Assembly: GCA_023212725.1 (NCBI GenBank)
Contig: JALBYF010000006.1
Span: 186,001 to 250,000 of the forward strand
Length of the DNA stretch: 64,000 nucleotides
DNA from: Tranzscheliella williamsii
Lineage: Eukaryota; Basidiomycota; Ustilaginomycetes; Ustilaginales; Ustilaginaceae
Direction: 5' to 3'
Shown: piece after piece, positions 12,991 through 33,468 of the stretch
How the letters are laid out: every line of letters begins with the position of its first letter
Position numbering within the stretch: the stretch's first letter is position 1
The notes under the pieces: generated by a model
Databases searched by the model: none
What the model was told of the DNA's origin: nothing
The model's input: the letters and a program-made list of their open reading frames with translations, nothing else
Made by a program: the position numbers and the translations under genes

Positions 12991-14541
12991 TCAGGAGCGG
13001 GACCAGGCGAGACGGCCGGCGACCCAGGTCTGCTTGACGGCGCCGGTGAGTCTGTCGAGGACGACAAGGTCGGCGTCGGCGCCGGGGCGAAGGAAGCCCT
13101 TGGTATTGTCGAGGCCGAGAAGGGTGGCGGGGTGGGCGGTGGCGCAGGCGGCGGCGGTGTGGAGGGGAATGGAGGCGTACTGTGCCAGGTTGGTGACGCA
13201 GTCGGCGAGGGGCACTCCGCTGCCGGCGAGCGTGTCGGTGCCGTGGAGGGTGAGCCGGTTGCCCTGCTTTGCGATGTCCTGGTTGGGGCGCCACGGGTAG
13301 ATGCCGTCTGGCTTGGCGGGGTCCATCCATGGCATGGCTGTGGGGGAGAAGCACGGTCAGCACACGAACCTCAGCCGCGGACAGGCACAGTACTCACCAT
13401 CCGACACCAGCACGCATCCGGCCGGGTGTGCCGAGTAGGCCATGCGCACCGAGCACGGGTGGCTGTGGAACCCATCGGCGATCAGCCCATAGTACGGCCG
13501 CGCCCTCCGCTCGCGTGGCCGCGCCACGCCGTTCGCCGCGTCCTTGGTGGAAACGCCGGCGGCGACGAGATCGTGCGTCGAGTCGCCCAGCAGGCCGATT
13601 ACACCCGGGTCGCGGTGGTTGAAGCTGCCCATGGCGTTGAAGAGATGCGTGATGAAGCTCGCTCCGCTCTCCTTGGCTGCCAGCGCCGTGTCGATTCCGG
13701 AGGCGGTATGGCCGAGCGAGACGGTCACGCCGCGCGCCACCAGCCCGGGAATCGCTGGCAGGATGCCGTCCACCTCGGGCGCCAGCGTCAGCAGCTTCAC
13801 CGCTGGCGCTGGCATGTCGAGCCCGTGTGGCCCGGCGCCGTACACCTCCTCCAACGCTGCGATGCCGCCATCGGCCGCGCGGATAAGCGACGAGCAGTGG
13901 GCGCCCTTCTTGTGCGGCGAGAGGAACGGCCCTTCGCAGTGGTATCCTAGCGAGGACGCCTGGCCCGGCCGCGACCGCGGCGCCAGCAAGGGAAGAATCT
14001 GGCACAGGCACAAGCACGCAGGCGAGAGGGGGTCGGTAAGCCGACTCTACGCATGCGAAGCGGCCAGCAGCTGCGTACTCACCTTGCGGTATGCTTCGGC
14101 CTTCTGGGTGATAATGGTCGGGACAAAACTGGTTACCCCTGTCTCTAGGATGCGCTGGGCGAAGGTGTCGAGCCGCGCAAGGTAGTCGGCAGCTGCGCTT
14201 GTACTGCCAGACGAAGCAGACGAGTCGTCGAACTCGGAAAAGTCGATTCCATAACCGCCGTTGACCTGCACATCGATAAAGCCGGGCACGAGAAAGTCGC
14301 CCTCCAGATCGATACTCTGAGTGAAGGCGGCCTTGCCATCGAAGAATGCATGCTGTCCGTCGACGATCTTGCCCGAGACCGGGTCAACGTGCAGCGAATA
14401 TGTCGTGATGTCGCGGGGAAGCGACCCGTCAGGCAGGAGCGCTTGGCAGTTGGTAAATCGAAGCAGCTCGTTCGAGCCCAGCATTGTTGATGTGGCATGG
14501 GCGGCCTCTGCCGTAGTTTTGCTTGCTGCAACGGACGGCAT
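12991..14541 (-). CDS. DAC1: N-acetylglucosamine-6-phosphate deacetylase
   Basis: Minus-strand exons are 14541-14083, 13998-13398 and 13337-12991, coding 468 residues. Both introns are GT-AG and restore frame. The enzyme removes acetate from GlcNAc-6-P to give GlcN-6-P, the second step of GlcNAc catabolism. Family signatures appear in order: FLVPGFIDVQVNGGYGIDFS, YHCEGPFLSPHKKGAH (metal-binding Glu at about residue 175), SLGHTAS, THLFNAMGSFNHRDPG, IADGFHSHP and VSDAM (split by intron 2). The last is the catalytic Asp block. The upstream bases to 14550 are in frame but begin with TTG, so the ATG at 14541 is chosen. It opens the GlcNAc cluster and is divergent from the GIG1 homologue. Confidence 0.93.
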
Positions 14542-14928
14542 ACTTTTCAAGCGTCTTTCTCGGCGTCAGAAGGAGTCACTGCTCGATATCAGCAATGCCA
14601 AACGGCGACGCATCCAACTTTCAGTCGAGAGCATCGTTCTTTTATTAAAGCGCACTGGGTAGCCTAAGCCGAGCACGGTCACCAGACCGGAGCTCCGGCC
14701 GGCGAAGAGAGCCAAATCGGAGGCATGGCCTTCAAGCCTGGGCAGGAGCAAACGGTGTGTTATCAGCAGGCAGAGAGACTGGCAGAGGTGGAGGGCCGAC
14801 CGCGGGAGCAGCAGCAGGATTCACCGCGACTGATTGCGCAGTCGGCAGCCTTCACCGACGCACCTCGGTCGGGCTCGGACCGACAAGCGCGCGCCAGTGG
14901 CAGGATTGAAATTCGTTACCTGACAGTT

Positions 14929-14976
14929 TGAGAGCTCCAAATTGAGGCATCATGAGAGCTCCAAATCAAGGCGTCA
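14929..14976. repeat. 24-bp tandem direct repeat (two copies)
   Basis: Copies at 14929-14952 and 14953-14976 match at 21 of 24 positions and share the core TGAGAGCTCCAAAT. They lie in the DAC1/GIG1 divergent promoter. Confidence 0.7.
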
Positions 14977-15304
14977 GGGCCAGACTGCCATGGCCAGGCT
15001 CTTTTTGCCGATGGGAACGTTGTCGGCGACCTAGTTGTATGCTCTATTGGCCGCTTCTCCTACTGCCTTCTGGAACCACTGCCGCATTGAAGGCCGTTTG
15101 TAATGACCGCTACCAAGGCTGTCGGCTTAAGCCGTCTACATAGTGAGAGTAGTGTGGGCATCACCAATCTGCCTGGATTAGTATGGAATGTGCAAGGCGC
15201 AAGCGCACTTCGGGAGCGCCGATGATGGTACAGAGGAATCTCCCACCGAGCAACAAGGTTATGCGCATTTTCGGTCATCACGATAAGCGTTGCAACGTGT
15301 CCAG

Positions 15305-15340
15305 GCTCTGGCACACTCCCGCGCTCTGGCACACTCCCAC
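15305..15340. repeat. 18-bp tandem direct repeat (two copies)
   Basis: Copies at 15305-15322 and 15323-15340 differ at one base and share GCTCTGGCACACTCCC. They lie about 310 bp upstream of the GIG1 start. Confidence 0.7.
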
Positions 15341-15652
15341 GTTCGGTGCAAGCAGGCCGCATCCGTACCGATGCAAGCCGTCAGTTGGCCGTCACGGCTA
15401 GCCTCGCAGTTTTTGTTGCGCCGGTAGAGCTCCAGCGTTGCTTCCAATTGCACTACTTGGCACTGCCTGTCTCGTCCCCTTGCTCTGTCACCACCACCAA
15501 AGCTAGCTAGCTCTACTTTAGTTTAACTACACCAAACCGGCTTGCGCTTAGATCTTGCCCAAAATCGCCTACATCGACAAGTTTCTGCTGTTCGGCCAGA
15601 GTCCGTTTGCCAGCTTTAACCCTCAGCCAACGTAGAGCGCACCACTGCGGCG

Positions 15653-16547
15653 ATGCTGGCGTCCACAGAAACCTCTTGCTCGGTCCTACGCGAGCCAGGC
15701 CAAGGCCAGCTCCTCCTCCGCGGTGCCAAGGACGGCGAGCTCGGTGCTCACTCTGGGCCTGCGACAAGCGCGCTACGAGCGCCTCTCTTTACCTGGGAGG
15801 ACCTCTGCGGGATAGTAGGTGAGTGCATGCATGTTGCAGATGGCATCTCGCCGCACGTCGAAAGGCGCACTGCTGACTTGGATGTTCCTGTTCGGCGCGC
15901 AAGGCAGTGGCAATTTACAAAAACTGTCGCGGCATCCGGCCGACCTGGAAGAGTACTTTGCGTGGATGGACGAGATCAAGCAGACGTATGGGTCGGTGCA
16001 AGCGTATCTGCTTGCGGAGAAGTTGACGGCGGCGCAGCTTGTCCGTGCCGCATCTTCGCGTGCGGCGGGGGTGGATGGAGCGCGGTGCTTCCAGGCGTGG
16101 TTCGCGCCGGGGCGGGAATGCGAGGTGCTGGTGAACGACTGGCCGTACTCGGTGCCGGCGGATGTGACGCACTTTGTGGTGTGGTCCTGCGTGCCGGTAC
16201 TGGATGCGGCGCTGGTGGCAACGGCGCCCGCCGACGTGGCTGAGGTTGCCTGGCGGCTCATCGCCAAGCGCGGCCTCTGCGGGACGCTCGTGCGCGGCGC
16301 ACTGCGCGTTCCCAGCATCGACGACCACTTGCACCACCTCCCCGCCCTCCGCCCCGCCGTCGCCGCCCCCCACATCCAAGCCGCCCTCGCCTCCACCCTC
16401 CGCGACGCCACCACCCACCTCGTCCGCTTCATCGCACACAACTGGGACCTCGCCACCACCGACGCCGTCTTCTTCGCCAACCCGCCCAGCCTCCAGTCCG
16501 TCCCCGCACTCGCCCACTTCCACGTCCTTGTCAAGCACCACACGTAG
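15653..16547 (+). CDS. GIG1: DUF3605 protein, homologue of GlcNAc-induced protein GIG1
   Basis: Exons 15653-15818 and 15904-16547 give 269 residues. Splicing joins LFTWEDLCGIV to GSGNLQKLSRHPADLEEY. The block LFTWEDL...LSRHP..LEEYFAWMDEIK followed by YGSVQAYLLAEKL is the hallmark start of the DUF3605 family, as I recall it. The middle has the family-typical NDWPYSVPADVTHFVVWSC, and the C-terminus has FFANPPSLQSVPALAHFHVL. Candida albicans GIG1, induced by GlcNAc and linked to nikkomycin sensitivity, belongs to this family. The biochemical role is unknown. Position between deacetylase and GlcNAc kinase genes supports a role in GlcNAc metabolism. The codon third position switches sharply from G to C along the second exon. 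Confidence 0.8.
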
Positions 16548-16862
16548 CCCTCTCCCACCTTCCACTTTAGATAGTAGACACTCGACACCTGTAACTAGAA
16601 GACCCAGTCCCGACATGTAGCCATATCGACATAGCATCTGCGTCAGCACAAACGGAGAGCCGCGGACCTGTGAGCGAGCCGAGCACGGGCGCACATGCAC
16701 ACGGTGCCAGGAGAAGGTCCTATGTGAGGGTTGCATGTGATTGTCCGCGCTTTGGGTAATATGCAGGGAACGGGGAGCAGGCGACGATGCTGGCTTGGGG
16801 ATCCGTGGCAAAAGTCCGGAGCATGCAGGGGCAAGGTGGATGGGGAGGCGAGGGAGGGGATG
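16548..16862. other. convergent intergenic spacer
   Basis: This spacer holds the 3' flanks of the GIG1 homologue (plus strand) and the GlcNAc kinase (minus strand). I see nothing else in it. Confidence 0.5.
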
Positions 16863-18176
16863 TCAGAGCGGGACGGAAGTGCCAAGAAAGCGCTGGGCCA
16901 GGTAGGCGAGCGCTTCGTGGGCAGGGCTCTTGACGACGTGGATGTTCTTAAAGTCGTCCCTGCCCTGGGCATTCCACATGGTGTGGAGGAGGTCGAGAAA
17001 CTTGGCGTTGGACCAGAGACCGCCGCCGAGGACGAGGGTGGATGCGGCGGGCCGGACCAGCTCGGCGGGACGGCAGAGCTTCGAGATGGATGCGATGCAG
17101 TCGGCGACGGCCTCATTGAGGAGCTGATCCGCGAGCTCCTTTCCACTCCGTCCGGCGTCCTCAAATGCGTAGTCAAAGACGACGCGTGTGGTCTCCGCCA
17201 GCCAGCGCTTGCGTGCGTCCTCGGCATGGAAAAAGTTGCCGCCCTTGGCACATACCCGGTCCTGGTATGCCGCATAGATGAGTTCGATTGGCGTTGTGAC
17301 GCCGAGCGTGCGACAGACAGCGTCCTCGAAATCGGTTAAAGGAAGCGCTGTGAACTGACGCTCCTCCTCACGCGCGAGCATCAGCTGGATGGTAGACAGG
17401 CCAATCGACCAGCCGCTACCACGGTCGCCGAGCAGATAGCCCCATCCGCCTGTCTTGCTGACCGTGGCTAGGCCAGGCAAATCTTCATTCTCTCCTGCTG
17501 ATGGCGGTGCCGCATCGGCGGTCAACGCGGTGGCGGATGAATCAAGAGGGGCAGTGCGGCGAAAGGCGAAGCCGGCGCTCCCGGTTCCTGCTATCAGACA
17601 GACGCAGGACGGTGTAGACGGGTCTCGAAGCATCGGCGCAGACAGCAGCACGGCATCGTTTGTGATCCAAATGCACGTGTTGTCGTCTGCGAGATGATAT
17701 TCTTGCAGGACTTGTGATAGCTGGTGACGGTAGCTGCTGATGACGGCGGACGAAGAAAGACCCGCCGAGCCTATCCAGATAGCCTTGACCCTCGGGCGTG
17801 AGACAGGGGCTGAAGTAGAACAGGATGCAGTGGCGACAGGATATCCATCGGCAGACGAGATGTCGTTTTCCGAGACCGAGAGCGGTGGTGTCGTGACGCC
17901 CTCTGTTTCGCCGGCGTCGATCAGTTCAAAGAAAGTAGCAAAGCCGGCGGATATCAAAGCGTCCCTGACGGCTCTGAGGATGACATGGCTTGCAGCCTCT
18001 AGCCCCAACGTCGCGCAGTTCCCGCAGCCGGCCTGACCGGTGTAGGTCATCTTGGAGCCCACCGCCGCAGCCACGGCCAGGGTCTTGGTGCCCCCCGCAT
18101 CGACACAAAGCACGACATCGCTGCAAGTGTCGGAGAGCGGTAGCTGCGACGAGGATGCCTCGCTAGCGACGGGCAT
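16863..18176 (-). CDS. NAGK: N-acetylglucosamine kinase, BadF/BadG ATPase family (NAGK-like)
   Basis: The 437-residue protein starts at the ATG at 18176, just before the phosphate-binding block LCVDAGGTKTLAVAAA. The open frame runs 145 codons further upstream, but that part is low-complexity and has no family similarity. Further landmarks are GQAGCGNC, the ATP-site LIAGTGSAGFAF, GGWGYLLGDRGSGWSIG and LGGGLWSNAKF, in the order seen in animal NAGK. It would phosphorylate GlcNAc to GlcNAc-6-P, the substrate of the adjacent deacetylase. Extra Ser/Ala-rich loops explain the length (animal NAGK is about 345). Ascomycete GlcNAc clusters use a hexokinase-fold kinase instead, so a BadF-fold kinase here is notable. 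It is divergent from the deaminase gene. Confidence 0.88.
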   Translation of the reverse strand: MPVASEASSSQLPLSDTCSDVVLCVDAGGTKTLAVAAAVGSKMTYTGQAGCGNCATLGLEAASHVILRAVRDALISAGFATFFELIDAGETEGVTTPPLSVSENDISSADGYPVATASCSTSAPVSRPRVKAIWIGSAGLSSSAVISSYRHQLSQVLQEYHLADDNTCIWITNDAVLLSAPMLRDPSTPSCVCLIAGTGSAGFAFRRTAPLDSSATALTADAAPPSAGENEDLPGLATVSKTGGWGYLLGDRGSGWSIGLSTIQLMLAREEERQFTALPLTDFEDAVCRTLGVTTPIELIYAAYQDRVCAKGGNFFHAEDARKRWLAETTRVVFDYAFEDAGRSGKELADQLLNEAVADCIASISKLCRPAELVRPAASTLVLGGGLWSNAKFLDLLHTMWNAQGRDDFKNIHVVKSPAHEALAYLAQRFLGTSVPL

Positions 18177-18964
18177 GCTGTCCGTAAGAGCAAAGCCTAT
18201 AACTCTCTGAATGGGATACCGTTGCGAAACTGCGCGACGTGGATCGGAGTATGACCAGGATGTTGAGCAAGAGTATTTGAGCGAGCGCGAGACAAAGAAA
18301 GAGACAGGCACGACGACGAGGGCGCAGGAGAGGTGACCAGATGAAGCGCCGTGGGAGGAAGGAAGCGAGCGGATGGTAGAAGACAAGGACGGGTGATATA
18401 CCGGACGCTGAAGCGAACGGGAAGGATCGTCCTTCGTGGGGATCGGCTGCCTGTGTTGCTGGGAAGGGGAGGGGCCGAGCGGTCCGAGGGCACAAGCAAG
18501 GGCAGCTCTGCGAGGAATGCAGACGAATAGAAGCGGAGGATGGCTACCACTGCTGGGACGGACGGCTGCCGCTGACCACGCTTGGATGCACCGTAGGCGG
18601 TGAGATAGCACGAGCTAGGTGGTCGGAATGGGACGCAGTGAGAAGGGCCAGAGCCGCAAAGTAGGTGTGTTCGGAGAGGCCGAGCCAGCGAGATGGAAGC
18701 GAAAGCTAAGATGGGCGAGCTTGCGATTCGGCGATCGGAGCGATGTAGCCAACTCTATCGGTTGCAAGTGCGAATCACCGCGATAGCAATACTATCTAAC
18801 CGCGACTGTGACTGGAACTGCGCAGTGTGGAGCGTTGCGTTTGCTCGCCGTTCCTTTCCAGTGGGGTTTTCCAAAGCCGGCCAAAAGGGACCGACCGGCG
18901 CCTTGGCTTGTTTTTCGAGAGGGAATTGCATATACTGCTTTGGCCACCGCAGCCATCCATGATT

Positions 18965-19012
18965 GATTGCGATTGTGATTGCGATTGTGATTGTGATTGT
19001 GATTGTGATTGT
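18965..19012 (+). repeat. hexanucleotide microsatellite (GATTGT/GATTGC), eight units
   Basis: Eight contiguous GATTG(T/C) units: the first and third read GATTGC and the others GATTGT. They contain several copies of ATTGTGATTGT, the 11-mer found in other divergent promoters of the window. Confidence 0.85.
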
Positions 19013-19556
19013 AATGCCCCAGCCACAGTGCCGCCGTTCATGTTTGCCACAATGCATGCTGCAACTGGCCGGGGCCGACAACGGCCAATTCGACTTGCAT
19101 AATCGGCCCTTCCTTTCGCCAACATGCAATACGGAGCGGCTACAGCTAACTACAGTCCAGTCAGAGGAGACTCCAAATTGGTCTGCTGTTTTTGTTTTCG
19201 TGCTCAACTTCGGGGCGACACCGAGGCTTCAAGCTGTAATCCTCAATCGATTGTGATTATTTAGCCTCCATCTCGCCTTTTTCGGCGGTGGATGCTTGGG
19301 GCATCGGTCCGAGCGCGCCGAGATACACTCAAGCCGGTGGATCGGTGGACCGGGTATCTGCATCCACACCGCACTTCATGGCTGCTTCTGGCTCCATCCT
19401 TGCCTGCCCCAGGTTCGCTGCAACCTTCGAGATGCGGGTCTAGCCTGGCAGTAGGCTCAATGTGCTGATCTGTCCGCGTACCGCATCCCTGCGCGCAGTA
19501 TTTCGACGCTTGCCATGAATCGCATTGAACTGCCTCTATGTCCGCTACAATCCCTG

Positions 19557-19562
19557 TATAAG
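19557..19562 (+). promoter_or_regulatory. TATA-like element of NAG1
   Basis: TATAAG lies about 115 bp upstream of the NAG1 ATG at 19678. Confidence 0.4.
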
Positions 19563-19677
19563 AGCCGTGTAGCGGTGGACAGGGCGCAGTCTTGCGCCGT
19601 CCACCCTCCGGTCAGCATCCTTTCCTAGTTCACGCCAGACACTTCGCTTTACCTGCCTACGAAGTCCTTGCTCAGCT

Positions 19678-20640
19678 ATGCGATACATTATTCGAGACGA
19701 CAAGACGGCGGTTGGAGACTACGTAAGTGCGCCAGACAGCTATGTACGCGAGTGATGGAAGCTGAGCTAGCGTCCATCTCGATGCTTTGCAAGGTAGGTG
19801 GGTGAATATGTCGCAAAGCGCATCAATGCGCACTTCGAGGTGACCGATCGGCCGTTTGTGCTGGGGTGCCCCACCGGCTCGTCTCCCATGGATACCTACA
19901 AAAAGTTGATCCAGATCCACAAGGAAGGACGAGTGTCGTTCAAGAACGTGGTCACCTTCAACATGGACGAGTATGTGGGCCTGCCCAAGTCGCATCCCGA
20001 GTCGTACCACTCGTTTATGTGGAACAACTTTTTCAGCCACGTCGATGTCCAGCCTCAGAATGTGCACATTCTGAACGGCAACGCGCCGGATCTGGTGGCT
20101 GAGTGCCAGGCGTACGAGGCCAAGATCCAGGCGGTGGGCGGGATCGACTTGTTCATGGCGGGTGTTGGGTCGGATGGGCACATTGCGTTTAACGAGCCGG
20201 GGTCGTCGCTGGCGTCGCGGACGCGGATCAAGACGCTGGCCTACGACACGGTGCTGGACAACTCGCGCTTCTTCGGCAACGACCCGCTCAAGGTGCCGCG
20301 CATGGCGCTGACCGTGGGCGTGCAGACGGTCATGGACGCGCGTGAGATTCTGGTCATCATCGTAGGCCAGCACAAGTCGCACGCGCTCGCCAAGTGTGTC
20401 GAGGAGGGCGTCAACCACATGAACACCGTCTCCTGCATCCAGCTCCACCCCAACGCCCTGCTCGTCTCCGACGACGACGCCACCGCCGAGCTCAGAGTCC
20501 GCACCGTCCGCTACTTCAAGGGCATCGAGCGCGCCCAGGACGAGATCGAACGCCTCTACGGCCTCCACGGTCACAAAAAGAGCCCCTCCAGCGGCGGCAG
20601 CCCGCTCCTCAACGGCGCCTTTAACGGCAGCGCAAACTAG
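19678..20640 (+). CDS. NAG1: glucosamine-6-phosphate deaminase
   Basis: Exon 1 (19678-19722) codes only [15 protein letters not shown]. Exon 2 (19798-20640) continues [10 protein letters not shown], giving 295 residues. The enzyme converts GlcN-6-P to fructose-6-P and ammonia, feeding GlcNAc carbon into glycolysis. Family landmarks are [13 protein letters not shown] (phosphate binding), [11 protein letters not shown] with the catalytic Asp, [20 protein letters not shown] with the active-site loop and His, and [14 protein letters not shown]. The length is normal for eukaryotic NagB/GNPDA. The C-terminal tail is Ser/Gly-rich. Codons in the middle favour G at the third position and those at the end favour C (see findings). 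Confidence 0.95.
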
Positions 20641-20797
20641 CCCACTCGTATTTTGTTTTCTGTAAATAGACCCCTGCGAGCCTTTTTCCACCTTCCCCTC
20701 AGCTGTGAGTGGCTTGCTCCACTGTACTGTGCTATGCAGTCTATGTATCCAAGCGTGGGGCAGGGCAGAGAACGATATTCGTGTTTCTGGGCAGTAG

Positions 20798-23251
20798 CTA
20801 GGCTGTGGCCTCGACGCCGGTGAGCTGTTCTGCGAGGGCGTCGGCGGCGTCGTAAGCCGGATGCTTTACGGGCTCGTAGCGGATGCCCTGGTTGTTGTGG
20901 ACGCGGATGGTGGCGGTGCAGGCTGCAAGCTCGGTGGAGTAAGCGCGTACGAAGGGGCCAACGAGGCGGAGGATGGTGTGTTTGTGGGCGGCTGTGGTGA
21001 GGCCGGATCGGCTGAGCAGGCGAGCGGGCGAGCAGAGGGTGAGCAGGTACGAGGTGCAGGCCGCAAGCCAGAAGTGGCAGACGGAGGGCAGGGCAGCCAG
21101 CCGGCCTACGAAGCCGGCTTGCGGCCGCATCAGCACGGCGAGCACGTCCATGCACGCGTTGCGCCGCGCGTCCGCGTGCGCAAAGTACCGCGCCAGCACA
21201 TCCCCACTGCCTTCCGCATCCCCCAGCGAGAGCATGTAGGCATAGGCAAGCCGGTAGTGCAGATCCACCGTCTCATCCAACAGCCCCGCCTCGCCGCCCG
21301 CCACATTAATGCGCAGCTTGGTTGCGCAGAAGCTGCCCGTAAGCTGCTCCACAAGCCGCTGCCGGCGCTCGGCGTGCTTCTCGTTTCTCGCCTGTGCCGA
21401 GAGATAGGCGGCCTTGGCGAAGAAGACGAGCGCCACGTCTTGCTTCGACACGCTGCCGGGCAAGGAAGGGCTCGACGTCGACGAGCCCTCGCTGAAGCTG
21501 TCCGCCAGAAGGATCGTCGCGTACTGTTCGGGGTCGGAAAGCTCGGTAATCGAGTCTTTGCCGTGGATCAGGCACTGGTGCAGCTCAGCGACGTAGGCGC
21601 TCAGCCAGACGCGCACCCGGTCGAGCATGCTGACGTGCCGCACCGGTGGGAGGATGGCCACGATTTCGCCGACCGTCGGCCCGGCGTGCGGCCCTTGCTC
21701 GTAGCTGCACCTTTCGCTCCACCAGCGTGCGGCCCTTGCCACCCTCCATGCGTCCTCGGAGCCTTCGTAGCTGCTCCAGATGCAAGCGCCGATCACCTCC
21801 TCGGTTCCTATGCCGCTCTCGGGATTGAATTCCTCCTCGAAGCGCGCGGGAAAGTAGGGTACACACCGCTCCAGCACATCTTTCCGGAGGTCAAGATGCT
21901 TGCCGCGGATATGAGGAGCCGCCGAATGAAGAGAGGCCGTGGACACGATGGCCGAGAGCAGCACCGGCGTCAGCTCGGCAGAGGCTGGGAAGTCCGGAAA
22001 GCCAAGCCCGATCGGCTCGAACCGCTTGGCGTATAGGGCAAAGAGGGCCCTCGCCTCGTGTGTGCTAAGCAGACCGAGCCGGATGGCATCTAGCCGTGGG
22101 TCATCACGTCCCAACGTCAGGTCCGGGTATCTATACTGACTTGGCCTTGTCAAAAGAGCCTTCTGAGGCCGAGGACAGTCTGGCGAGCGTGCGCGAATCC
22201 TGCTGCCTGGGAAAGGCAACGAGCCCCGCGATCTGATAGCTGCAACGACAGCCTGGCTATTGTCACCTTGCGGCGTTGACAGGTTGGTTGCATCTGCTTC
22301 ATCCTGCGCTAGCTCTCTCGGACCAGATGGAGGTTGGTACTCGGCAGTAGAAAGAGCCAAACCGTGCTCGGCAAAGCCATTCGCGTTGCCATAATGATGC
22401 CAATTCGAGCTGTGCGTTTCCGCCAAGGGGCCGTAGCTGAGAAGATGCGGGTCTCCCCTATGTATGGGCGCCCGATGCAAGGATGGAGGCCGAGACCAAG
22501 CGCTGGGTGGGGTGGACGGTCGCCGTGTCCCGTTCTGAGCTCGGAGGCGGGCATGAGCCTCGGGACGAGCGCCGGATGAAGTAGGGAAGTTGAAGTCCAA
22601 AGCCTCTGTATGCCGTGAGAGCATTGGATTCATTCGGGCACGAGATTGCGGCCTATCCTCCAAAGCAGTTCCATCTGGATCACTGTCTTGCTGCATCGTC
22701 ACTGAATTTGCAAGTGGCGTTTCCGTATCGTCCGGAGGCTGACTTGCGCGTCCATAATGTGCGGAAGTAGATTCACGTCCTTGGTGCTCGCTTGACCTCG
22801 TTGCAGCCCTGTAGGCGGACGGCGAGCTGAGATCGCCCGCTCCAGCGACGAGGTCTTCCTCTACCGCCTTTCTTTTCAGCTGTGGCCGGGGAAGATGGTC
22901 CTGCTGGACTAGCGAGTTGATCGCTTCCACGAGCTTTCCGAGCGTCTCGTCCGTCTTGACGCGCCATTCGTCGTGGGCATAGCTTTGGCCTTCACGTGGC
23001 TTGAAAGTACATTCGTATCCGCCGTTCCGACAGCGCTTGCACGGCGAGGTGCCGTCGTGCTGACACCTGACTTTGGACCTCCTGCAGCTGAGACACGCGC
23101 CCAGGGGCTTCCGTGTGCCTAGGAGCTCTTCCCTCTGCGACCCGGCTACGCCCTCACCGCTGCTGCCGAGATGCGCAGCGGATGCGGAGGAGTTGGAGGA
23201 GAACGATGCAGAGCGGCGGTCGTCTTGGTGCTGGCTATACGGCATCATCAT
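20798..23251 (-). CDS. Zn2Cys6 binuclear-cluster transcription factor
   Basis: This is an intron-free 817-residue protein. The DNA-binding domain is at residues 53-81, with cysteines 53, 56, 63, 71, 74 and 81 (CLSCRRSKVRCQHDGTSP then CKRCRNGGYEC). A short basic linker and a likely coiled segment (TLGKLVEAINSLVQ) follow. The middle is disordered and Pro/Ser-rich. The C-terminal half (about residues 370-800) is helical and matches the general fungal transcription factor middle-homology layout (LFALYAKRFEPIGLGFPDF; RAARWWSERC). Such proteins bind CGG/CCG triplets. Being inside the GlcNAc cluster, convergent with NAG1 and divergent from the phosphomutase, it is the obvious candidate pathway regulator, though nothing in sequence proves its targets. 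Confidence 0.9.
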   Translation of the reverse strand: MMMPYSQHQDDRRSASFSSNSSASAAHLGSSGEGVAGSQREELLGTRKPLGACLSCRRSKVRCQHDGTSPCKRCRNGGYECTFKPREGQSYAHDEWRVKTDETLGKLVEAINSLVQQDHLPRPQLKRKAVEEDLVAGAGDLSSPSAYRAATRSSEHQGRESTSAHYGRASQPPDDTETPLANSVTMQQDSDPDGTALEDRPQSRARMNPMLSRHTEALDFNFPTSSGARPEAHARLRAQNGTRRPSTPPSAWSRPPSLHRAPIHRGDPHLLSYGPLAETHSSNWHHYGNANGFAEHGLALSTAEYQPPSGPRELAQDEADATNLSTPQGDNSQAVVAAIRSRGSLPFPGSRIRARSPDCPRPQKALLTRPSQYRYPDLTLGRDDPRLDAIRLGLLSTHEARALFALYAKRFEPIGLGFPDFPASAELTPVLLSAIVSTASLHSAAPHIRGKHLDLRKDVLERCVPYFPARFEEEFNPESGIGTEEVIGACIWSSYEGSEDAWRVARAARWWSERCSYEQGPHAGPTVGEIVAILPPVRHVSMLDRVRVWLSAYVAELHQCLIHGKDSITELSDPEQYATILLADSFSEGSSTSSPSLPGSVSKQDVALVFFAKAAYLSAQARNEKHAERRQRLVEQLTGSFCATKLRINVAGGEAGLLDETVDLHYRLAYAYMLSLGDAEGSGDVLARYFAHADARRNACMDVLAVLMRPQAGFVGRLAALPSVCHFWLAACTSYLLTLCSPARLLSRSGLTTAAHKHTILRLVGPFVRAYSTELAACTATIRVHNNQGIRYEPVKHPAYDAADALAEQLTGVEATA

Positions 23252-23760
23252 CTACTGGCATTCGCTGTGCCGGAGAAGGACATCGCATCGAGGCTGGGAA
23301 GCAAGTCTGTCACAATCACAATGGACCCCAACGAAGAGGTGAGTGAAGCCAATTGCTTCGAGCTACCGATGCACTGAGCTCAATCCAGCGGTGCTTGTCC
23401 GCGCGCCAAAGAGCAGGCCAGATGAAAGGGTCAATGTGAGTGTGAGTGCAAGCCGAGGCTTGAGAGAGGTTGCTACAAGAGCGCGGGCAATCGTACCTGA
23501 GAGATACGGTTGCGCTTGCATGTGGGGAAGCGCGGCGAAACTGCCGAAATTGGAGGCGCATGTTAAGCCGACGATGCTGGTGGGGCCGGTCTTAACAATG
23601 CTATTTTCGCCGGCCATCTCCGAGAAAGGATCGACACTCACACTCACACTCACCGTGCTGATGGACTGCAGCGGCAGTGCTCATACTTTGATCGCAAGGA
23701 GTCAGTTCCTTTGCTTAGTACTGCATACCCTCTGCTCTACCATTATCACTAAGCCTCAAG
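23252..23760. promoter_or_regulatory. divergent promoter region between the Zn2Cys6 factor and PGM2-type gene
   Basis: It contains the 11-mer ACAATCACAAT at 23312-23322, 61 bp upstream of the regulator start. It also has GTGAGTGTGAGTG at 23436-23448 and the complementary CACTCACACTCAC array at 23635-23653. These arms could pair across about 190 bp. No gene is seen. Confidence 0.5.
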
Positions 23761-25762
23761 ATGGCAGCTGATCTATCTGTCCAGGCCAAAGCTTGGCTCG
23801 AAAAGGACCCCGATCCGGCAACCAAGGAGCAGCTGGCTCGCTTTATCGACCAGAACGACACCAAGCAGCTGCAGTCTAGCTTCAATGGCCGCCTCGAGTT
23901 TGGAACGGCAGGCCTACGCGGTGTCATGGGTGTCGGCCCCAGCAAGATGAACGTATGTGTTTGAGATTGCTGCGCTGTACGTGAAACCCAGCTAACCTTT
24001 TGATTTGTTCTGATGTAGCTGCTTACTGTCTTGGAGACGACGGCTGGGCTGGCTGAGTATCTCCTGCGCACCGATAAGGACAAGGCCGTCAGCAAAGGAG
24101 TTGCGATCGCCTTTGATGGCCGGTTCGGCAGCCGCGACTTTGCCTATGCCTCGGCGCAGCATTTCGCCCACAGGGGCATTCCGTCCAGCATCTATCCCAC
24201 CCCTACCCCCACCCCCATGTGCGGATACGCCGTAAAGAAGCTCGGCCTGGCGGGCGGGATCGTAGTCACCGCGAGCCACAACCCCAAGGAATACAATGGC
24301 TACAAAGTGTACGGCCCAGCGGGAACGCAGATCAACACGCCTGTAGACGGCCAGATCGCTGACGAGATCCTCAAAATCGCAGAGCAGACCCAGGCCCCAA
24401 CCCTCAAGGACCTCGAACAGTGCAAGAAGGACGGCCAGCTAAAGGAGTTCGGAGATGAAATGTTGACCGCCTATGTTACAGACGTCCAGAAGCTAGGAAT
24501 GTTCAAGGCCCAGCCGGCAAAGGGCGGAGAGGCGCCCATTACGGTAGCCTACAGCCCTCTGCACGGCGTTGGCGCTGCTTCCATTGAACGTCTCTCCAAG
24601 CAGGTCGCCGGCCTGACCGAAGGGACCAACTTCTGGATTTCGGCGGAACAGCGAGAACCTGATGGCGCATTCCCAACACTCGAGTTTCCCAGTACGTACA
24701 CGGACTAAGCTTTGATCCTCCGCGACGACCGACGGCATGGCACTTCGGATTGTTGACCTTTTACATCGCCTGCATTGTTCAGATCCTGAGGAACTGTCGA
24801 CGCTAGAGTTGGTACACAAGCTGTCGGATGAGCACAAAACCGGCCTGGCCATCGTCAACGACCCCGACGCGGACCGTCTAGCTGTTTCGGCCAGAGACAG
24901 GGACGGCCACCTGCGCGCATTTACCGGAGACCAGCTTGGCACTCTGTTTGGTGATGAGATCCTGCGTCGGTCTCACCAGGCCCAGGGCAAAGGGCTGTGG
25001 ACGCTGAGCACCATCGTCTCGAGCCGTCTGTTGGCCAGGCTGTCGCAGCATTGGGGAGGCAAGCATGTCGAGACGCTGACGGGATTCAAGTGGCTCGGCA
25101 ATGTAGCGCGGGGTATCGAGGCGCGTGAAGGCCCTGGCTCTTTCGGATTTGGCTACGAAGAGGCGCTGGGCTACATGGCGGCCAGCTCCGTGTGGGACAA
25201 GGACGGACTGTCATCCTACCTTCTCATCCTTTCGCTAGCCTTTGAGCTGGCCAGGGAAGGCAAGACGCTGTGGGATCGCCTCGAGGAGATTCATGGCCTG
25301 GTCGGGCTTTCGGTGACCATGCAAAAGATCATCAAGCTGGGCCCTACGATGAAGGGCACAGACGTGATGGCTAAGCTGCGCGCCGAACTCGCCTCCGGTA
25401 AGAGCCGCGTGGAGCAGGCCGGTAAAACCTTCACCTTTAGCCTGGTGGATGATCTGCAAGCGCGGCCTGCCTACGACGAAGCCAAAGCAGAGGCGGGTGA
25501 CGTAAGCATACCGAGGAACGACGTGCTGCGATTCTACGTTCCGCCTAGCCACGTCGACACATCCCGCCAGCGTCAGAGGGAAGAAATCATGCTCGCCGAC
25601 ATCCGGGTCATCGTGCGGCCCTCTGGCACAGAGCCCAAGGTCAAGGTCTACACCGAGGCTCTGGGCCAGTTCCGCGAGCGAGAATCCTACCCGGACGCGG
25701 TGAAACGTGTCACGGCCGAACTCGAGGAGGTGGTCAGCGCTTTCTGGTCCTGGATGAGCTGA
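23761..25762 (+). CDS. PGM2: phosphoglucomutase-2 / phosphopentomutase family
   Basis: Exons 23761-23952, 24019-24691 and 24783-25762 give 614 residues, with all splice phases consistent. The active-site phosphoserine block is VTASHNPKEYNGYKVY (Ser150). The metal loop is NDPDADRLAV, restored by intron 2 removal just upstream (EFPNPEE). The sugar-specificity loop is TGFKWLGNVARGI, and the phosphate-binding block is VRPSGTEPKVKVYTE. The FGTAGLRGVMG start and FKWLGN loop place it with mammalian PGM2 / yeast PGM3 (phosphopentomutase) rather than classical PGM1 or the GlcNAc-phosphate mutase family. It interconverts ribose or hexose 1- and 6(5)-phosphates. Whether it serves GlcNAc use or is a chance neighbour is not clear. 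Confidence 0.92.
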
Positions 25763-26273
25763 TAAGCCATGCATCGTGCACGCTTTGCACAGGACCCCCC
25801 CCATCGACTGTTCTCTGGCCAATACACACAACAACCATCACACTGAAACGTCGACTACGGTTCATCACAGCGAGGCGTGCTGGCATGTGTGGTTGAGCAG
25901 GCGGTGAAACTTCAGGAAAGGATGTTAGGTTGAGAATACCCCATTTATACATGTTAGATCGACGTTAACGATTCCGGTGATTAATTTGGCTGTTAAGGCT
26001 TGTGAAGGTTGGCGGGGCATTCACATTGCCACCCGCAGAAGATGCGCGTGAGAAAGCTGGTAACCCCACCGCAACGTCACTTGGCTGCGTAGAGGCGATG
26101 TAGATCCAGCTCAGCCGACGAAATCTTGGGCCCAGACATCCGACCTAGCCATCATCTACCTTGCCATTTCGAAGCGCAGTCACCGAGGTGAACGGAGATG
26201 TGAAAACTTTTGAGTCCCCACGCCTATCCTACTCTTGCTACCACGATCATCTCGTCGAAGTTGGCACGCAAAG
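25763..26273. other. intergenic region, no gene seen
   Basis: The 3' flank of the phosphomutase gene and the promoter of the lipase gene. It is moderately AT-rich around 25940-26010. No convincing frame or repeat. Confidence 0.45.
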
Positions 26274-28865
26274 ATGGCTACCGATCCACCGGGCTCTTAC
26301 GACGACGTTTCGGTCGCCGACAGTGCAGATCCAACCATGCCCACTCTGGCACCATCCACGAACGAGGGTACGAGCATAGACAGTGGGGCTATTCTGGCGG
26401 AACAAAAGTCTGCCGAGGAGGACGAAGAGGAGAAAGAAGAGGCAAAGAGCCTGAGCGAGGCTGCTCTGTCTATCCCCGACTCGGAAGCAGGAGACGTGGC
26501 CTCTTCGAGCGACGGTCAGCAAGTCGTGGCCTCGGATTCGGGTCATGCCGGTGTTGTTGCCCATCCTCCTACGACCGACTGGCAGGGTCTGCTCGGCCAT
26601 TCGGCGTCCGGTGCAGGCGCTGCCACCGCCGCCACGTCCGCCTACTTCAACTTTGCCAAGATGGCCACCTCGTTCGGCCTCAATGTCGCCAAGCGCGTCA
26701 CTCAGGGTGTCGTAGCTGTGCCCACCTTCCTCGCGGATGGCGCCCTGACGGGCACCGCCCCGGGCGTTGGCAACAACACCCCGTCGATTGCCAAGGTGGC
26801 GCATTCCGGCATCGCCAGCTTCTTCGATACCATCTCTCTGCTTGCTGTCGGAGGCATCGACCTGACCAGTGCCGTCACCAGTGCTGGGCTCGGCGCCGTC
26901 GGCTCCGGATGCGAGGGTGTCCGTCGCGCTCTAGGCTCCGAAGTACTCCGCAGTCTAGCAGAGTTTTCCCGGCTCGTCAAGCGAGAATGGGCGGTAGAGG
27001 ACGACTCGCTGCCCCCGGGCGGCATCCCCGGATACTCCCTCATCGGCATTACCAAAGCCCTCTCCACCTGGGTCTCCATCCAGCTGGTCACGCGGCGATT
27101 CCAAGAGGCTAGGATGTTGCAGGGCCTCGAAGAAATTGATCTGGCCAAGTTGAAAGAGGATGTGGACTCTCTCCGGCATTCCCATCACGTCGACACTGCT
27201 AGCGCAAATGCTGTTGCCCTTACTGCTCACAGGGCTGGAGAGGGCGCAGCCACACAGGCCTCGAATGACGTCCGCATCACCTCCTCCAACCCAATGCAGG
27301 GCTACTCGGGCAACGTCATCGGCGCCGAGATCGGTACCAAAGCGGGCTCGAGCCATCGTCTTCCCGGCTCGACGCACTCGGACGAACCGGCACGGCCATT
27401 GACAGATGCCGAAGCCGTGCACAATCTGCAGCGATACTCAAAGCTCGTCTTGGGCGTCTACGGCGGCATGGCTCTGTATTGGCTTAAAGGCATCCCGGAA
27501 CAGGTCAAAAGCGCTCGGACCGCAGCACAGGCGCGGTCCCAGCCCAATGAAATTGTCTTTTCAGCTGAAGAAGAGTTTATGCGCCAAGATCAGGCCGAGT
27601 TCCTCGAAGCCGCTGCGCAGATGGAACTGCAAGACGAAGAGGGAGACACCAACACGGGACTCGAAAACGGCCAGGCGCGGACAGAGCCTGCGTCCGGAAA
27701 CCCAGTGCCAGCTGACTCGTACAACCTCTGGGATGTGATTTCCGGGACCCACGACAACGACCTTTTCCACCACACTGCCAGCCTCGACAAAGGCACTGCA
27801 ATGGAGGGACGCTACGTCGAGGATAACCGAGAGCTGGCGGGACGAGCAAATCCGATGGACGAGAAAGCCAAGCCGAGCAAGCCGCGCTTCTACGTCGTCA
27901 CTGATCATCTGCGCAAGACCATCATCCTCGTGCTGCGCGGTACGCTTTCGGTCGGTGATGTTGCCGCCGACCTGACGTGCGAGAGTGTGCCCTTTATCTT
28001 CGATGCCGAGGTCTTGTCGAATCTGTCCAAGCGGCCAAGTGCAGCGACGCCCGCGGGCCTGCCGAAGCGGTTTGTCGACGAGGAGGGCGAGTATCTGTGC
28101 CACGAGGGCATGTACATCACTGCCAAAGAGATCGGCTCGCGCGGCCGGTCGGTCCACCGGAGCGTAGCCACGGCGCTGGCAGGCAACGAGGGCTACTCGA
28201 TCGACATTACCGGCCACTCGCTGGGTGCGGGTGTAGCGGCGGTGCTGGCGATGATGTGGGCGGACCCGGTCACGGGGCTGACGACCAGGTCGTCGGGGCT
28301 GCCTGCGGGGCGGCGGCTGCACGCGTACTGCTTCGGAGTGCCGTGCGTGACCAACGAGGCGCTCGGCCAGCGGCTGGGGGGGATCATCACCTCGTACACG
28401 TTCTCCTACGACCTGATCTGCCGGCTGTCGCTGGGGGCGATCCAGGACATCCGCAACGCATGTGCCTGGCTCTGCTTCCAGGACCGCGAGGCGGGACACG
28501 GCCCGGGGACGATGAACGTGCTCATGCGCCGCGCGTTCGACTACCAGGCTGGCCGGCTCGACGCCGACGAGGCCGCCGCGGTCGAGTCCGAGCTGCTCGT
28601 CCTGCGCAAGACGCTCGAGGCCAACATGCACAACACCCACCTCTTCCCCCCGGGCAAGGTCCTCTACTCGCTGCGCGCCGGCGACGACCTCCTCCCGCCG
28701 CCCGCACCCGCTCAGCCGCCCCCGCGCCCGCACAGGCTCTTCTCCGTCCGACCCGACCGCGACGCCCTCCGCAACGTCTACGGCCAGATCGTCTTCTCCC
28801 GCAACATGCTCTCTTGCCACATGCCCAACGTCTACGACGACATGCTCCACTCCCTCGCGCGGTAA
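26274..28865 (+). CDS. class 3 lipase / sn-1-specific diacylglycerol lipase-like protein
   Basis: This is an intron-free 863-residue protein starting at MATDPPGSYDD (26274). The upstream in-frame extension is ignored. The first 120 residues are acidic and disordered. Residues 120-260 are Ala/Gly-rich hydrophobic segments that may be membrane-associated. The hydrolase domain runs from about residue 545, beginning with RFYVVTDHLRKTIILVLRG, the lipase-3 opening strand. The nucleophile elbow is GHSLGAG with Ser649, followed by HAYCFGVPCV and a region fitting the Asp/His of the triad. The combination of membrane segments, a lipase-3 domain and large inserts resembles fungal diacylglycerol lipases that make monoacylglycerol and free fatty acid. 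The substrate is unproven. It separates GIG2 from the rest of the GlcNAc genes. Confidence 0.85.
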   Translation: MATDPPGSYDDVSVADSADPTMPTLAPSTNEGTSIDSGAILAEQKSAEEDEEEKEEAKSLSEAALSIPDSEAGDVASSSDGQQVVASDSGHAGVVAHPPTTDWQGLLGHSASGAGAATAATSAYFNFAKMATSFGLNVAKRVTQGVVAVPTFLADGALTGTAPGVGNNTPSIAKVAHSGIASFFDTISLLAVGGIDLTSAVTSAGLGAVGSGCEGVRRALGSEVLRSLAEFSRLVKREWAVEDDSLPPGGIPGYSLIGITKALSTWVSIQLVTRRFQEARMLQGLEEIDLAKLKEDVDSLRHSHHVDTASANAVALTAHRAGEGAATQASNDVRITSSNPMQGYSGNVIGAEIGTKAGSSHRLPGSTHSDEPARPLTDAEAVHNLQRYSKLVLGVYGGMALYWLKGIPEQVKSARTAAQARSQPNEIVFSAEEEFMRQDQAEFLEAAAQMELQDEEGDTNTGLENGQARTEPASGNPVPADSYNLWDVISGTHDNDLFHHTASLDKGTAMEGRYVEDNRELAGRANPMDEKAKPSKPRFYVVTDHLRKTIILVLRGTLSVGDVAADLTCESVPFIFDAEVLSNLSKRPSAATPAGLPKRFVDEEGEYLCHEGMYITAKEIGSRGRSVHRSVATALAGNEGYSIDITGHSLGAGVAAVLAMMWADPVTGLTTRSSGLPAGRRLHAYCFGVPCVTNEALGQRLGGIITSYTFSYDLICRLSLGAIQDIRNACAWLCFQDREAGHGPGTMNVLMRRAFDYQAGRLDADEAAAVESELLVLRKTLEANMHNTHLFPPGKVLYSLRAGDDLLPPPAPAQPPPRPHRLFSVRPDRDALRNVYGQIVFSRNMLSCHMPNVYDDMLHSLAR

Positions 28866-28954
28866 CCCGCCGCCATCCCCATCCTGTACTTTACCTGCTC
28901 CACAGTACTCCACACAGGCAATTCGAAGCGCTGCTACGGCATGACTTGGTTGCG

Positions 28955-30529
28955 TTAGTGGTGCAGGGGCTCGAGCTGGGCGTTGCACCAGCGGAGCAGC
29001 TCGGCCTCGGCGGGGGGCGTGGCGGCGGGGATGTCGAAGGGGAGGAGGCCGAGGGCGCTGCGTGCGTCGGGGGGGTGGACGTCGGCGGGGCGCGCGCGGT
29101 CGGGGAAGGCGGCCTCGCCGGGCCCGCCGGGGAAGTCGGGCGGCGGGGTGCCGGCGGCGAAGGCGCGCTTCTGGCGGAGGATATACTGCCAGTTGTGCGC
29201 GGTGGTGGGGATGGCGGGGATGTAGAAAACCGAGCTGTCTGCGTGTCCGGCATGGGAGCCTTCGACGGCGTGGACAGCGTCGCAGTGCCAGAGAACCATG
29301 TCGCCGGGGGCGACGTGGGGGATGCTGGTCATGGTGCGGTCGAGCTGGAGGTGGGGGTGGGTGGTGTTGTCGAGCTCGAGGTTGTGGCCGAGCGAGCAGC
29401 CGGGGAAGCGGTGGGAGGGGTCGAGGCACCAGTTGGCGGGGGCTAGGAAGGCGGAGTCGGAGGGGCAGGCGGCGCGGGTGCGGCGCGGGTGGAAGAAGGG
29501 GCGGAGGATGATGTAGGCGGTGGCTTCGCGGAGGAAGGGGAGGATGCGGAGGGTGCCCTGGTTGGCGCGGGTCGTGGAGAGCGAGAGCCAGCCCTGGAGG
29601 GGGCGGAACACCCCGCACTGGCCCGGCCCGCCGTACATGTCGGTGCGCGCGTGCAGGCGGGCGTCGGCTGGGCCTAGCGACCAGGGGTCGTGGGCGCGCC
29701 AGCTGGGTCCGGCGAGGATGTGATGCCAGAGGGAGCGGAAGCGGGCGCACTCCCATCGCTCGATGCCGCCGCCGTCGACGTGGGCGCCGAGCGCGAAGCG
29801 TGCATCGCCCGGGTGGCGGATACGAACGCGGTCGACATAGGTCAGCGGCCGCGAGAGCGCCACACCACCGCCCGCGCTGTCGGCGGCTTCGTGGAAGAGG
29901 CCCAGCAAGGCGCGCGACGCCGCGAGCACGTTGGGGTGCGCGCGCGCCGCCACCTGCGCGCGCGACCAGTACACCTCCCACACCTGCGGATCGTCGGCAG
30001 GAAACCCCTTGGCCCCGTTCGTCGCCGCGTACGCCCCCACCGCCGCCGCATACCCCTCCGCCTCCGCCGCCGGCACCACCCCCCGCACCACCACCACCCC
30101 CCGCTCCCGTACCGCCCCCACCGTCGCCGCATCCGCCCACCCCTCCACCCCCTCGTGCGCCCGTCCAGCACCCAAAAATTCCACCTCGGGAATACAACCC
30201 CCACCGCGCTCCGCCACCTCGGCCACCCGCTCCTCCAGCGCCGCCAACACGGACTCCCACGCGCGCGTCAACTGCGCCGCGTGCGACTCGGTCCCCATCA
30301 GCTCGCGCTTCAGCGCCGCAAACCGTTCCGGCAGCGCATCTTCCAAGCTCCCGCCGGAGAGCGAAGCAAATACCGATGCGATCGTGCCCTCCTCCTTGCC
30401 CTCGTTCCGTGTCGGTGTCGGGGCCGCGGTGGCAAGCGTAGCGTTGTGGCGCCGGAGCACGGCGCTGCCCGTAGGATACCGGCCAAATACGCCTGTCACG
30501 GCGCGCGAAACCAGCCGTCTTGCTATCAT
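28955..30529 (-). CDS. GIG2: DUF1479 (Gig2-like) 2-oxoglutarate/Fe(II) oxygenase-fold protein
   Basis: The 524-residue protein starts at MIARRLVSRAVTG (30529), 62 bp inside a TATATAG element. An earlier in-frame codon at 30568 is not needed. The N-terminus is Arg/Ser/Ala-rich like a mitochondrial presequence. Family landmarks as I recall them are DDPQVWEVYWSRAQVAAR, a jelly-roll Fe site with HVDGGGIERW (His-x-Asp) and MVLWHCDAVHAVEGSH (distal His), LQGWLSLSTTRANQGTLRI and FYIPAIP near the end. DUF1479 includes Candida albicans GIG2, a GlcNAc-induced gene, and bacterial YbiU. The catalytic reaction is not established. Its proximity to a GIG1 homologue and the GlcNAc enzymes supports a role in amino-sugar metabolism. 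The coding strand is G-rich in its 5' half and C-rich in its 3' half. Confidence 0.83.
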   Translation of the reverse strand: MIARRLVSRAVTGVFGRYPTGSAVLRRHNATLATAAPTPTRNEGKEEGTIASVFASLSGGSLEDALPERFAALKRELMGTESHAAQLTRAWESVLAALEERVAEVAERGGGCIPEVEFLGAGRAHEGVEGWADAATVGAVRERGVVVVRGVVPAAEAEGYAAAVGAYAATNGAKGFPADDPQVWEVYWSRAQVAARAHPNVLAASRALLGLFHEAADSAGGGVALSRPLTYVDRVRIRHPGDARFALGAHVDGGGIERWECARFRSLWHHILAGPSWRAHDPWSLGPADARLHARTDMYGGPGQCGVFRPLQGWLSLSTTRANQGTLRILPFLREATAYIILRPFFHPRRTRAACPSDSAFLAPANWCLDPSHRFPGCSLGHNLELDNTTHPHLQLDRTMTSIPHVAPGDMVLWHCDAVHAVEGSHAGHADSSVFYIPAIPTTAHNWQYILRQKRAFAAGTPPPDFPGGPGEAAFPDRARPADVHPPDARSALGLLPFDIPAATPPAEAELLRWCNAQLEPLHH

Positions 30530-32822: not shown

Positions 32823-33468
32823 GGCGAGGTGCACAAGGCAGGTAGGAGGAGCTAGCAAAGGCCCATCGATCGCGAGCAACGTCGAAGCAGGACGGCAAGC
32901 GCCTTATCGACGATCCGTCACGTTCGGCCATGTCGACGAGAATAAGAGACAGGCGAGCGAGTGAGGGATCCGGCAACGTCGCAGCCGGCGTTGGTCAGAT
33001 GATGCGGTTCCACGCGCCTAACAGGCCTTGGCAGTGACGGAGAAAAGGCCCCTCGGCTGCAAGGCCGCTCTGCAGCAACGCCTTTAGGTCATACGCCTTA
33101 CCTACTTCTGCCTTGTGCGGTCACCTTCCATGTTTCGCTCAGCTCATGCGGGCGGCACACCTCGAAACGGAGGCGCACCCAAGCGTCGACGAGCGTCGCA
33201 CACCTTTCAATAGCACAAGGGCACGCGAGCAGCGAGCGAGAAGACGAGCAAGGCAAAGCCGGAGGTGACAGCGCGGGGTAGCGGCATGCATTGACAGGTT
33301 ACCGCCTCGTTTGACCGGCTGTACAAGGGACGGCGATCTAACAGACCATGCACACTGAGCCTGTTAGATCAACAAAGCTTGCTCCTCCTTCGGCCAAGGC
33401 ACAGATCAGAGATGCGGATGTTGGTTGGGTCGGTGTTCGCATGCGAGCCGCTGGGTGGTGAGGGTGGA
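32823..33468. other. intergenic region upstream of P450
   Basis: No gene is seen. It is the P450 promoter and the 3' flank of the next minus-strand gene. No clear TATA element. Confidence 0.45.

Follow-up and report, generated by a model that had tools for sequence, protein, structure and literature searches.

The locus

This analysis concerns genes for the catabolism of N-acetylglucosamine (GlcNAc) in the smut fungus Tranzscheliella williamsii, within a window of 64,000 nucleotides (bases 186001–250000 of contig C92) of a genome searched as 18.18 Mb in 135 contigs. Between window positions 12991 (end of nagA) and 30529 (start codon of GIG2), the gene order is nagA (−), GIG1 (+), a kinase gene (−), nagB (+), a Zn2Cys6 transcription factor gene (−), a PGM2-type mutase gene (+), a class 3 lipase gene (+) and GIG2 (−), with a cytochrome P450 gene (−) next after GIG2. 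An earlier sequence-only reading had named seven of the eight, and gene models and family profile matches bear out their positions; the lipase gene, missing from its list, separates the mutase from GIG2. We favour, with a probability of roughly 0.7, a GlcNAc catabolic cluster of an Ustilaginaceae-like smut in which GIG1 is an auxiliary member and GIG2 a neighbour through shared gene order.

The core comprises two divergent pairs, nagA/GIG1 and kinase/nagB. The nagA and nagB start codons are 5.1 kb apart with GIG1 and the kinase gene in between. The nagA (DAC1) splice model (minus strand, exons 14541–14083, 13998–13398 and 13337–12991) gives a GlcNAc-6-phosphate deacetylase of 468 residues, which matches PF01979 and scores 201.8 bits against TIGR00221, below the bacterial equivalog cut-off of 225.65. 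A divergent intergenic region of 1.1 kb (14542–15652), possibly a shared promoter, separates it from GIG1 (plus strand, exons 15653–15818 and 15904–16547), which encodes a 269-residue homologue of the DUF3605/HTC family. The 437-residue BadF/NAGK-type GlcNAc kinase is encoded by an open frame at 16863–18176 on the minus strand, and a second divergent region of 1.5 kb (18177–19677) leads to nagB (NAG1; plus strand, exons 19678–19722 and 19798–20640), a glucosamine-6-phosphate deaminase of 295 residues that scores 377.6 bits against TIGR00502, far over the deaminase cut-off of 236.9. Both nagA and nagB read intact. Splice models and profile matches recover all three catabolic enzymes claimed in the earlier reading, with the deacetylase and deaminase genes close together and between them a GlcNAc kinase gene of BadF/NAGK rather than hexokinase type. 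Acting in turn, kinase, deacetylase and deaminase would take GlcNAc through GlcNAc-6-phosphate and glucosamine-6-phosphate to fructose-6-phosphate.

The kinase matches PF01869 at 39.5 bits (cut-off 31.5), and its profile matches the N-acetylmuramic acid (MurNAc)/GlcNAc kinase 8zo3 (1.1e-33) and NAGK 2ch5/2ch6 (1.2e-16). Residues G243, G244, W245, G246, G250, D251, G253 and S254, invariant in 17 of 17 sequences, form the pattern GGWG..GD.GS, which we take to be the signature of BadF/NAGK GlcNAc kinases. Against the NCBIfam equivalog NagK_SO3507, a model built for bacterial and archaeal annotation, it scores 34.3 bits, below the cut-off of 370. Family and context point to GlcNAc as the probable substrate; MurNAc or glucosamine is also possible. 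A genome search with PF03727 gave two hexokinase-family loci, both on contigs other than that of the cluster. By their motifs these are presumably the ordinary hexokinase and glucokinase, and a further hexokinase-type GlcNAc kinase in this genome was rejected on that reading. In the accessible portions of the literature, Yarrowia uses a hexokinase-like GlcNAc kinase (PMC4376941), those of Candida and T. reesei are hexokinase-type by name, and in the basidiomycete C. oleaginosus the deacetylase and deaminase are numbered consecutively and the kinase is described as a homologue of the Candida enzyme. Given that the ascomycete kinases are hexokinase-like, that both hexokinase-family loci lie elsewhere in this genome and that the C. 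oleaginosus kinase is Candida-like, the BadF kinase seems to have replaced the hexokinase-type enzyme in the smut lineage, so that a different protein superfamily would fill the kinase step. A published kinase tree covers Tilletiaria and Cryptococcus sequences. Two mushrooms and one Nemania have a BadF-type kinase joined to a GKRP-type SIS domain (PF22645) in one protein; the name N-acetylmuramic acid 6-phosphate etherase, given to one of these, hints at a combined kinase-etherase.

Conservation of gene linkage

Linkage in other genomes was judged from locus tags and the size of each match's longest contig, used as position fingerprints, over 32 GIG1 matches, 65 kinase matches and the best 120 of 405 GIG2 matches, considering only genomes that hold both partners. 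GIG1 is 47–53% identical to its named matches in Pseudozyma hubeiensis, Testicularia, Moesziomyces, Kalmanozyma, Ustilago and Sporisorium, and the kinase is 67–78% identical within the same smut group. GIG1 and the kinase share one contig in nine smut records. Tags place them together in S. graminicola (003795 and 003796), U. trichophora (01899 and 01900) and, two apart, in an assembly recorded as Cichorium endivia (29,615 bases); contig size does so in P. hubeiensis (1,089,200), T. cyperi (1,379,322), P. flocculosa (492,025) and three further records with contigs of 22,131, 5,253 and 3,557 bases. In Violaceomyces the two genes lie on different scaffolds (62,044 and 36,566 bases). The Cichorium proteins L1887_61341 and L1887_61339 are smut-like, the kinase being 78% identical to that of the window, so this plant assembly probably holds fungal (smut) contamination.

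GIG1 and GIG2, among the best 120 GIG2 matches, share a contig in seven records and are apart in five. The former are S. graminicola, where GIG2 stands six tags on as in the window, P. hubeiensis, T. cyperi, Kalmanozyma (1,427,303), U. trichophora (2,214,801) and contigs of 31,165 and 22,131 bases. The latter are Violaceomyces (62,044 versus 67,108), Leucosporidium (262,234 versus 42,519), the Microbotryomycetes JL201 (364,769 versus 875,821) and JL221 (398,021 versus 600,302), and P. flocculosa, with longest contigs of 492,025 versus 1,975,278. Each P. flocculosa match has two contigs, so the tags PFL1_06613 and PFL1_00434 are the firmer evidence of separation there.

Adjacency in close relatives, on which the sequence-only reading had staked its proposal, holds in this comparison, yet smut genomes are broadly collinear, so that agreement within the Ustilaginaceae is weak evidence and only the more distant comparison with P. 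flocculosa discriminates. Its kinase is only 38% identical to that of the window, yet GIG1 and the kinase still share a contig while GIG2 has separated. It is this single contrast, in which the kinase keeps GIG1 but not GIG2 on its contig, that carries the weight.

Copy number also bears on the arrangement, with genome counts that are lower bounds for large families. GIG2-like and BadF-type kinase (PF01869) genes each have one locus, nagA has one strong locus and a weak 24-bit match elsewhere, and DUF3605 has two loci, GIG1 and one other. PF01182 likewise finds nagB and one other locus, which is probably a 6-phosphogluconolactonase, since it matches this mixed family far more strongly. Under uniform placement, the chance that either of the two DUF3605 genes would land within the nagA–nagB core is P = 8e-4, and that of the sole GIG2 lying this near the core is P = 1.5e-3; these odds assume GIG genes named in advance and ignore the freedom to notice other patterns. 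The second DUF3605 gene is diverged and stands at the end of contig C89 (C89:117989–118270), adjoining a frame that by eye resembles a GMC-type oxidoreductase.

GIG1 as an auxiliary member of the pathway

GIG1 matches PF12239 at 99.4 bits (cut-off 23.6, E 3e-28) and has an HTC1-like fold with a histidine set. The Asn-Gln-Ser-His-x-His residues (N, Q, S, H, H) are strictly conserved in its alignment. The canonical histidine triad (HIT) motif, H-x-H-x-H-x-x, is departed from: GIG1 has L202-A-H204-F-H206-V-L (exon-2 numbering), with L202 invariant in 25 sequences. In a Foldseek search of the PDB, all matches after HTC1 have a probability of at most 0.12. The same search of viral models returned M1HNU7, a Tupanvirus protein and a Terrestrivirus protein, the last named histidine phosphatase domain-containing, at probabilities of 0.97–1.0 but with E >1e-3. 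A scan of viral contigs confirmed no viral relatives of DUF3605.

The sequence-only reading had taken both GIG proteins for true pathway members. For GIG1 this stands, given its position in the core between the deacetylase and kinase genes, the contig shared with the kinase in nine records and, as the accessible texts report, its control by GlcNAc regulators in Candida, Yarrowia and Trichoderma. Induction by GlcNAc would then switch on nagA, GIG1, the kinase gene and nagB jointly, with GIG1 a genuine auxiliary member of the GlcNAc regulon. Since GIG1 in Candida and Yarrowia is co-regulated but sits elsewhere in the genome, its place inside a catabolic cluster in smuts is evidence of another kind for pathway membership. 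A literature search that did not reach the original GIG1/GIG2 papers and most subscription papers found, among the matches listed, no earlier report of GIG1 within a GlcNAc cluster.

The accessible part of one paper (PMC7151181) counts what GIG1 does among the open questions on GlcNAc, and the link of GIG1 to a solved fold, that of HTC1, makes its chemistry testable. Tentatively, GIG1 may be a histidine-triad-fold protein that uses its Asn-Gln-Ser-His-x-His set to bind an amino sugar linked to phosphate or a nucleotide, UDP-GlcNAc for instance, and perhaps to hydrolyse or transfer it; it would keep sugar-nucleotide pools in check during GlcNAc inflow. A fuller version, which we regard as doubtful, makes GIG1 the missing working part of the pathway, a HIT-fold enzyme with its nucleophile position intact despite the loss of the first HIT histidine, which would act on an amino-sugar nucleotide (UDP-GlcNAc, for example) by cleavage or transfer and so protect the wall-precursor pool during growth on GlcNAc. 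In smuts it would have been built into the core cluster beside an animal/bacterial-type GlcNAc kinase replacing the ascomycete hexokinase-type enzyme. Alternatively, GIG1 could be a chaperone-like or regulatory HTC protein, co-regulated with the pathway and free of chemistry in GlcNAc use, that acts on protein folding or cell-wall stress. The missing first histidine fits such a role, as does the lack of a commensal fitness defect in the Candida gig1 mutant recorded in an accessible source, whereas the strict conservation of N, Q, S, H and H seems beyond the need of a channel alone and linkage with the catabolic genes speaks for a metabolic part. We consider the chaperone-like role possible, at low odds.

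The two core intergenic regions were scanned for shared motifs with bounds that deviate from those of the final models by at most 24 bases. The window has three copies of CTCCAAAT (14935, 14959 and 19171), all within these regions; because 18% of 2,000 random segment pairs hold a comparable exclusive word, it was rejected as a promoter motif and no claim is made for it. The Zn2Cys6-like TCGGNCCGA occurs twice, once per region, and is likewise left unclaimed as a regulatory site, since it was picked after many words had been viewed. An imperfect GATTGT-type tandem stretch is visible by eye at 18961–19013 in the kinase/nagB region. CRCAAAW, which we take to be the Ndt80-type motif, has 0 sites in the four promoters examined and 17 in the window. 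The cluster holds no Ndt80-type gene, the one PF05224 locus found being on contig C9, and no GH3 gene, the four GH3 loci found all being on other contigs. No NGT1-type or major facilitator superfamily transporter was matched among 40 open reading frame pieces of the window scanned with Pfam, which cover part of the exons.

Several points weigh against GIG1 as a pathway member. The linked records come mostly from close relatives, no motif beyond chance is shared by the two core intergenic regions, and the P. flocculosa linkage is a single case of a shared contig that gives no distance. As far as the accessible texts go, T. reesei gig1 responds within a minute, seemingly independently of GlcNAc import and unlike the catabolic genes, the Histoplasma GIG1 homologue is not GlcNAc-induced, and the Yarrowia paper itself says that direct proof of a GIG1 role is lacking. 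The first two points would suit an arrangement that is inherited smut gene order only, with GIG1 beside nagA by accident and not under selection. Such an origin is unlikely in our view, given that in P. flocculosa GIG1 and the kinase remain on one contig despite 38% kinase identity and a separated GIG2, and that ascomycete GIG1 is, in those same sources, under GlcNAc regulators though unlinked there.

GIG2 and the flanking genes

GIG2 (28955–30529, minus strand, ATG at 30529) scores 462 bits against PF07350 (cut-off 27) and matches the solved Candida GIG2 (6akz) at E 2.1e-51. H251, D253, H416 and H421, numbered as in the alignment's first row, are invariant in 14 of 14 sequences; H-x-D with a distal histidine is presumably the Fe(II)-binding motif of Fe(II)/2-oxoglutarate oxygenases, and GIG2 is a probable member of that class. 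Its N-terminus is arginine-rich and free of acidic residues. A presequence-like N-terminus, defined by composition as no more than one acidic residue and four or more basic ones among the first 35 and counted with fragments included, is present in 66 of 120 listed GIG2 homologues; the corresponding counts are 0 of 32 for GIG1 and 0 of 22 for the kinase, for which the nearest 22 of 65 homologues were taken; a cut stricter on acid (0 acidic, at least 3 basic) gives 31, 2 and 0 in the same sets. GIG2 is perhaps mitochondrial.

Three genes intervene between nagB and GIG2: those for the Zn2Cys6 factor (20798–23251, minus strand, PF00172), the mutase (24031–25762, plus strand, exon pieces 24031–24708 and 24737–25762; PF02878, PF02879, PF02880 and PF00408) and the lipase (26235–28865, plus strand, PF01764). 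Nothing beyond position was found that ties the mutase or the Zn2Cys6 factor to the GlcNAc pathway. The mutase was rejected as a GlcNAc-phosphate mutase (AGM1) on its PGM-type domains and the best solved chains for its second piece, the phosphoglucomutases 2fuv and 3na5.

Whether the whole 18 kb block, Zn2Cys6 factor and mutase included, is one functional cluster with both GIG proteins in the pathway turns on GIG2. Its sole locus lies <10 kb from nagB, a spacing of five tags from kinase to GIG2 recurs in S. graminicola and S. reilianum (only tags were compared, the intervening genes there being unread), and a Candida review, in its accessible part, lists GIG2 among GlcNAc metabolic genes repressed by Hxk1. 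Yet GIG2 is unlinked from GIG1 in P. flocculosa, Violaceomyces and three Microbotryomycetes, and the lipase gene interrupts the stretch from mutase to GIG2. The family is also spread through basidiomycetes, including, among the best 120 of 405 matches, Rhodotorula mucilaginosa, which is reported in the accessible text of one study not to grow on GlcNAc (PMC8650408), in strains that may differ from the GIG2-bearing record. This, together with the presequence-like N-terminus, argues against a dedicated cytosolic GIG2 step in GlcNAc use, and a single block is improbable. The earlier claim of membership for GIG2 is thus not upheld on its separation in P. flocculosa, wide spread and mitochondrial look, and a direct pathway step is not supported; GIG2 may handle products of the pathway. 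It would lie near the cluster through shared smut gene order, and the locus separates GIG1, whose membership is supported, from GIG2.

A scan of contigs with a fungal alignment confirmed no bacterial relatives of GIG2. One Microbotryomycetes GIG2 protein bears an extra PF04241 domain. The P450 gene adjoining GIG2 occupies 31107–32879 on the minus strand; a Ceratobasidium record annotates GIG2 together with a P450 domain in a single protein, which may mean that the two were neighbours before the smuts arose or else reflect a gene-model fusion.

Comparison with known systems

In what is accessible of the papers on related systems, DAC1 and NAG1 of Ustilago maydis are already in print as lying within two genes of each other (PMC2880306). 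The window likewise has two genes, GIG1 and the kinase gene, between nagA and nagB; those of U. maydis are unnamed in the accessible text. The Candida albicans NAG cluster (HXK1, DAC1, NAG1) resembles the window in its three reactions, adjacent genes and a divergent pair, and differs in its hexokinase-type rather than BadF-type kinase and in having GIG1 at another site. The cluster of filamentous ascomycetes (in T. reesei hxk3, dac1, dam1, ron1, nag3) also groups deacetylase and deaminase with a kinase, but has the Ndt80-type RON1 and a GH3 gene, both absent from the window cluster. A regulator of this type in the cluster is described as frequent in Pezizomycotina and absent from the Candida cluster, and the word GIG does not occur in the accessible main text of the T. 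reesei cluster paper. HTC1 (YPL067C, PDB 5kci), whose fold GIG1 resembles, comes from S. cerevisiae, which lacks NAG genes, and its proposed role is described in the available source as anti-amyloid. HINT1 and other HIT proteins match the GIG1 fold weakly. They have in common with GIG1 the C-terminal pattern N..QSV..H-x-HVL, in a register that puts H204 and H206 on His112 and His114 of HINT1; unlike HIT proteins, GIG1 has Leu in place of the first triad His and extra helical regions, and is without known activity. GIG2 belongs to the same Gig2-like family as the Candida albicans protein (6akz), from which the window protein differs by its presequence-like N-terminal extension.

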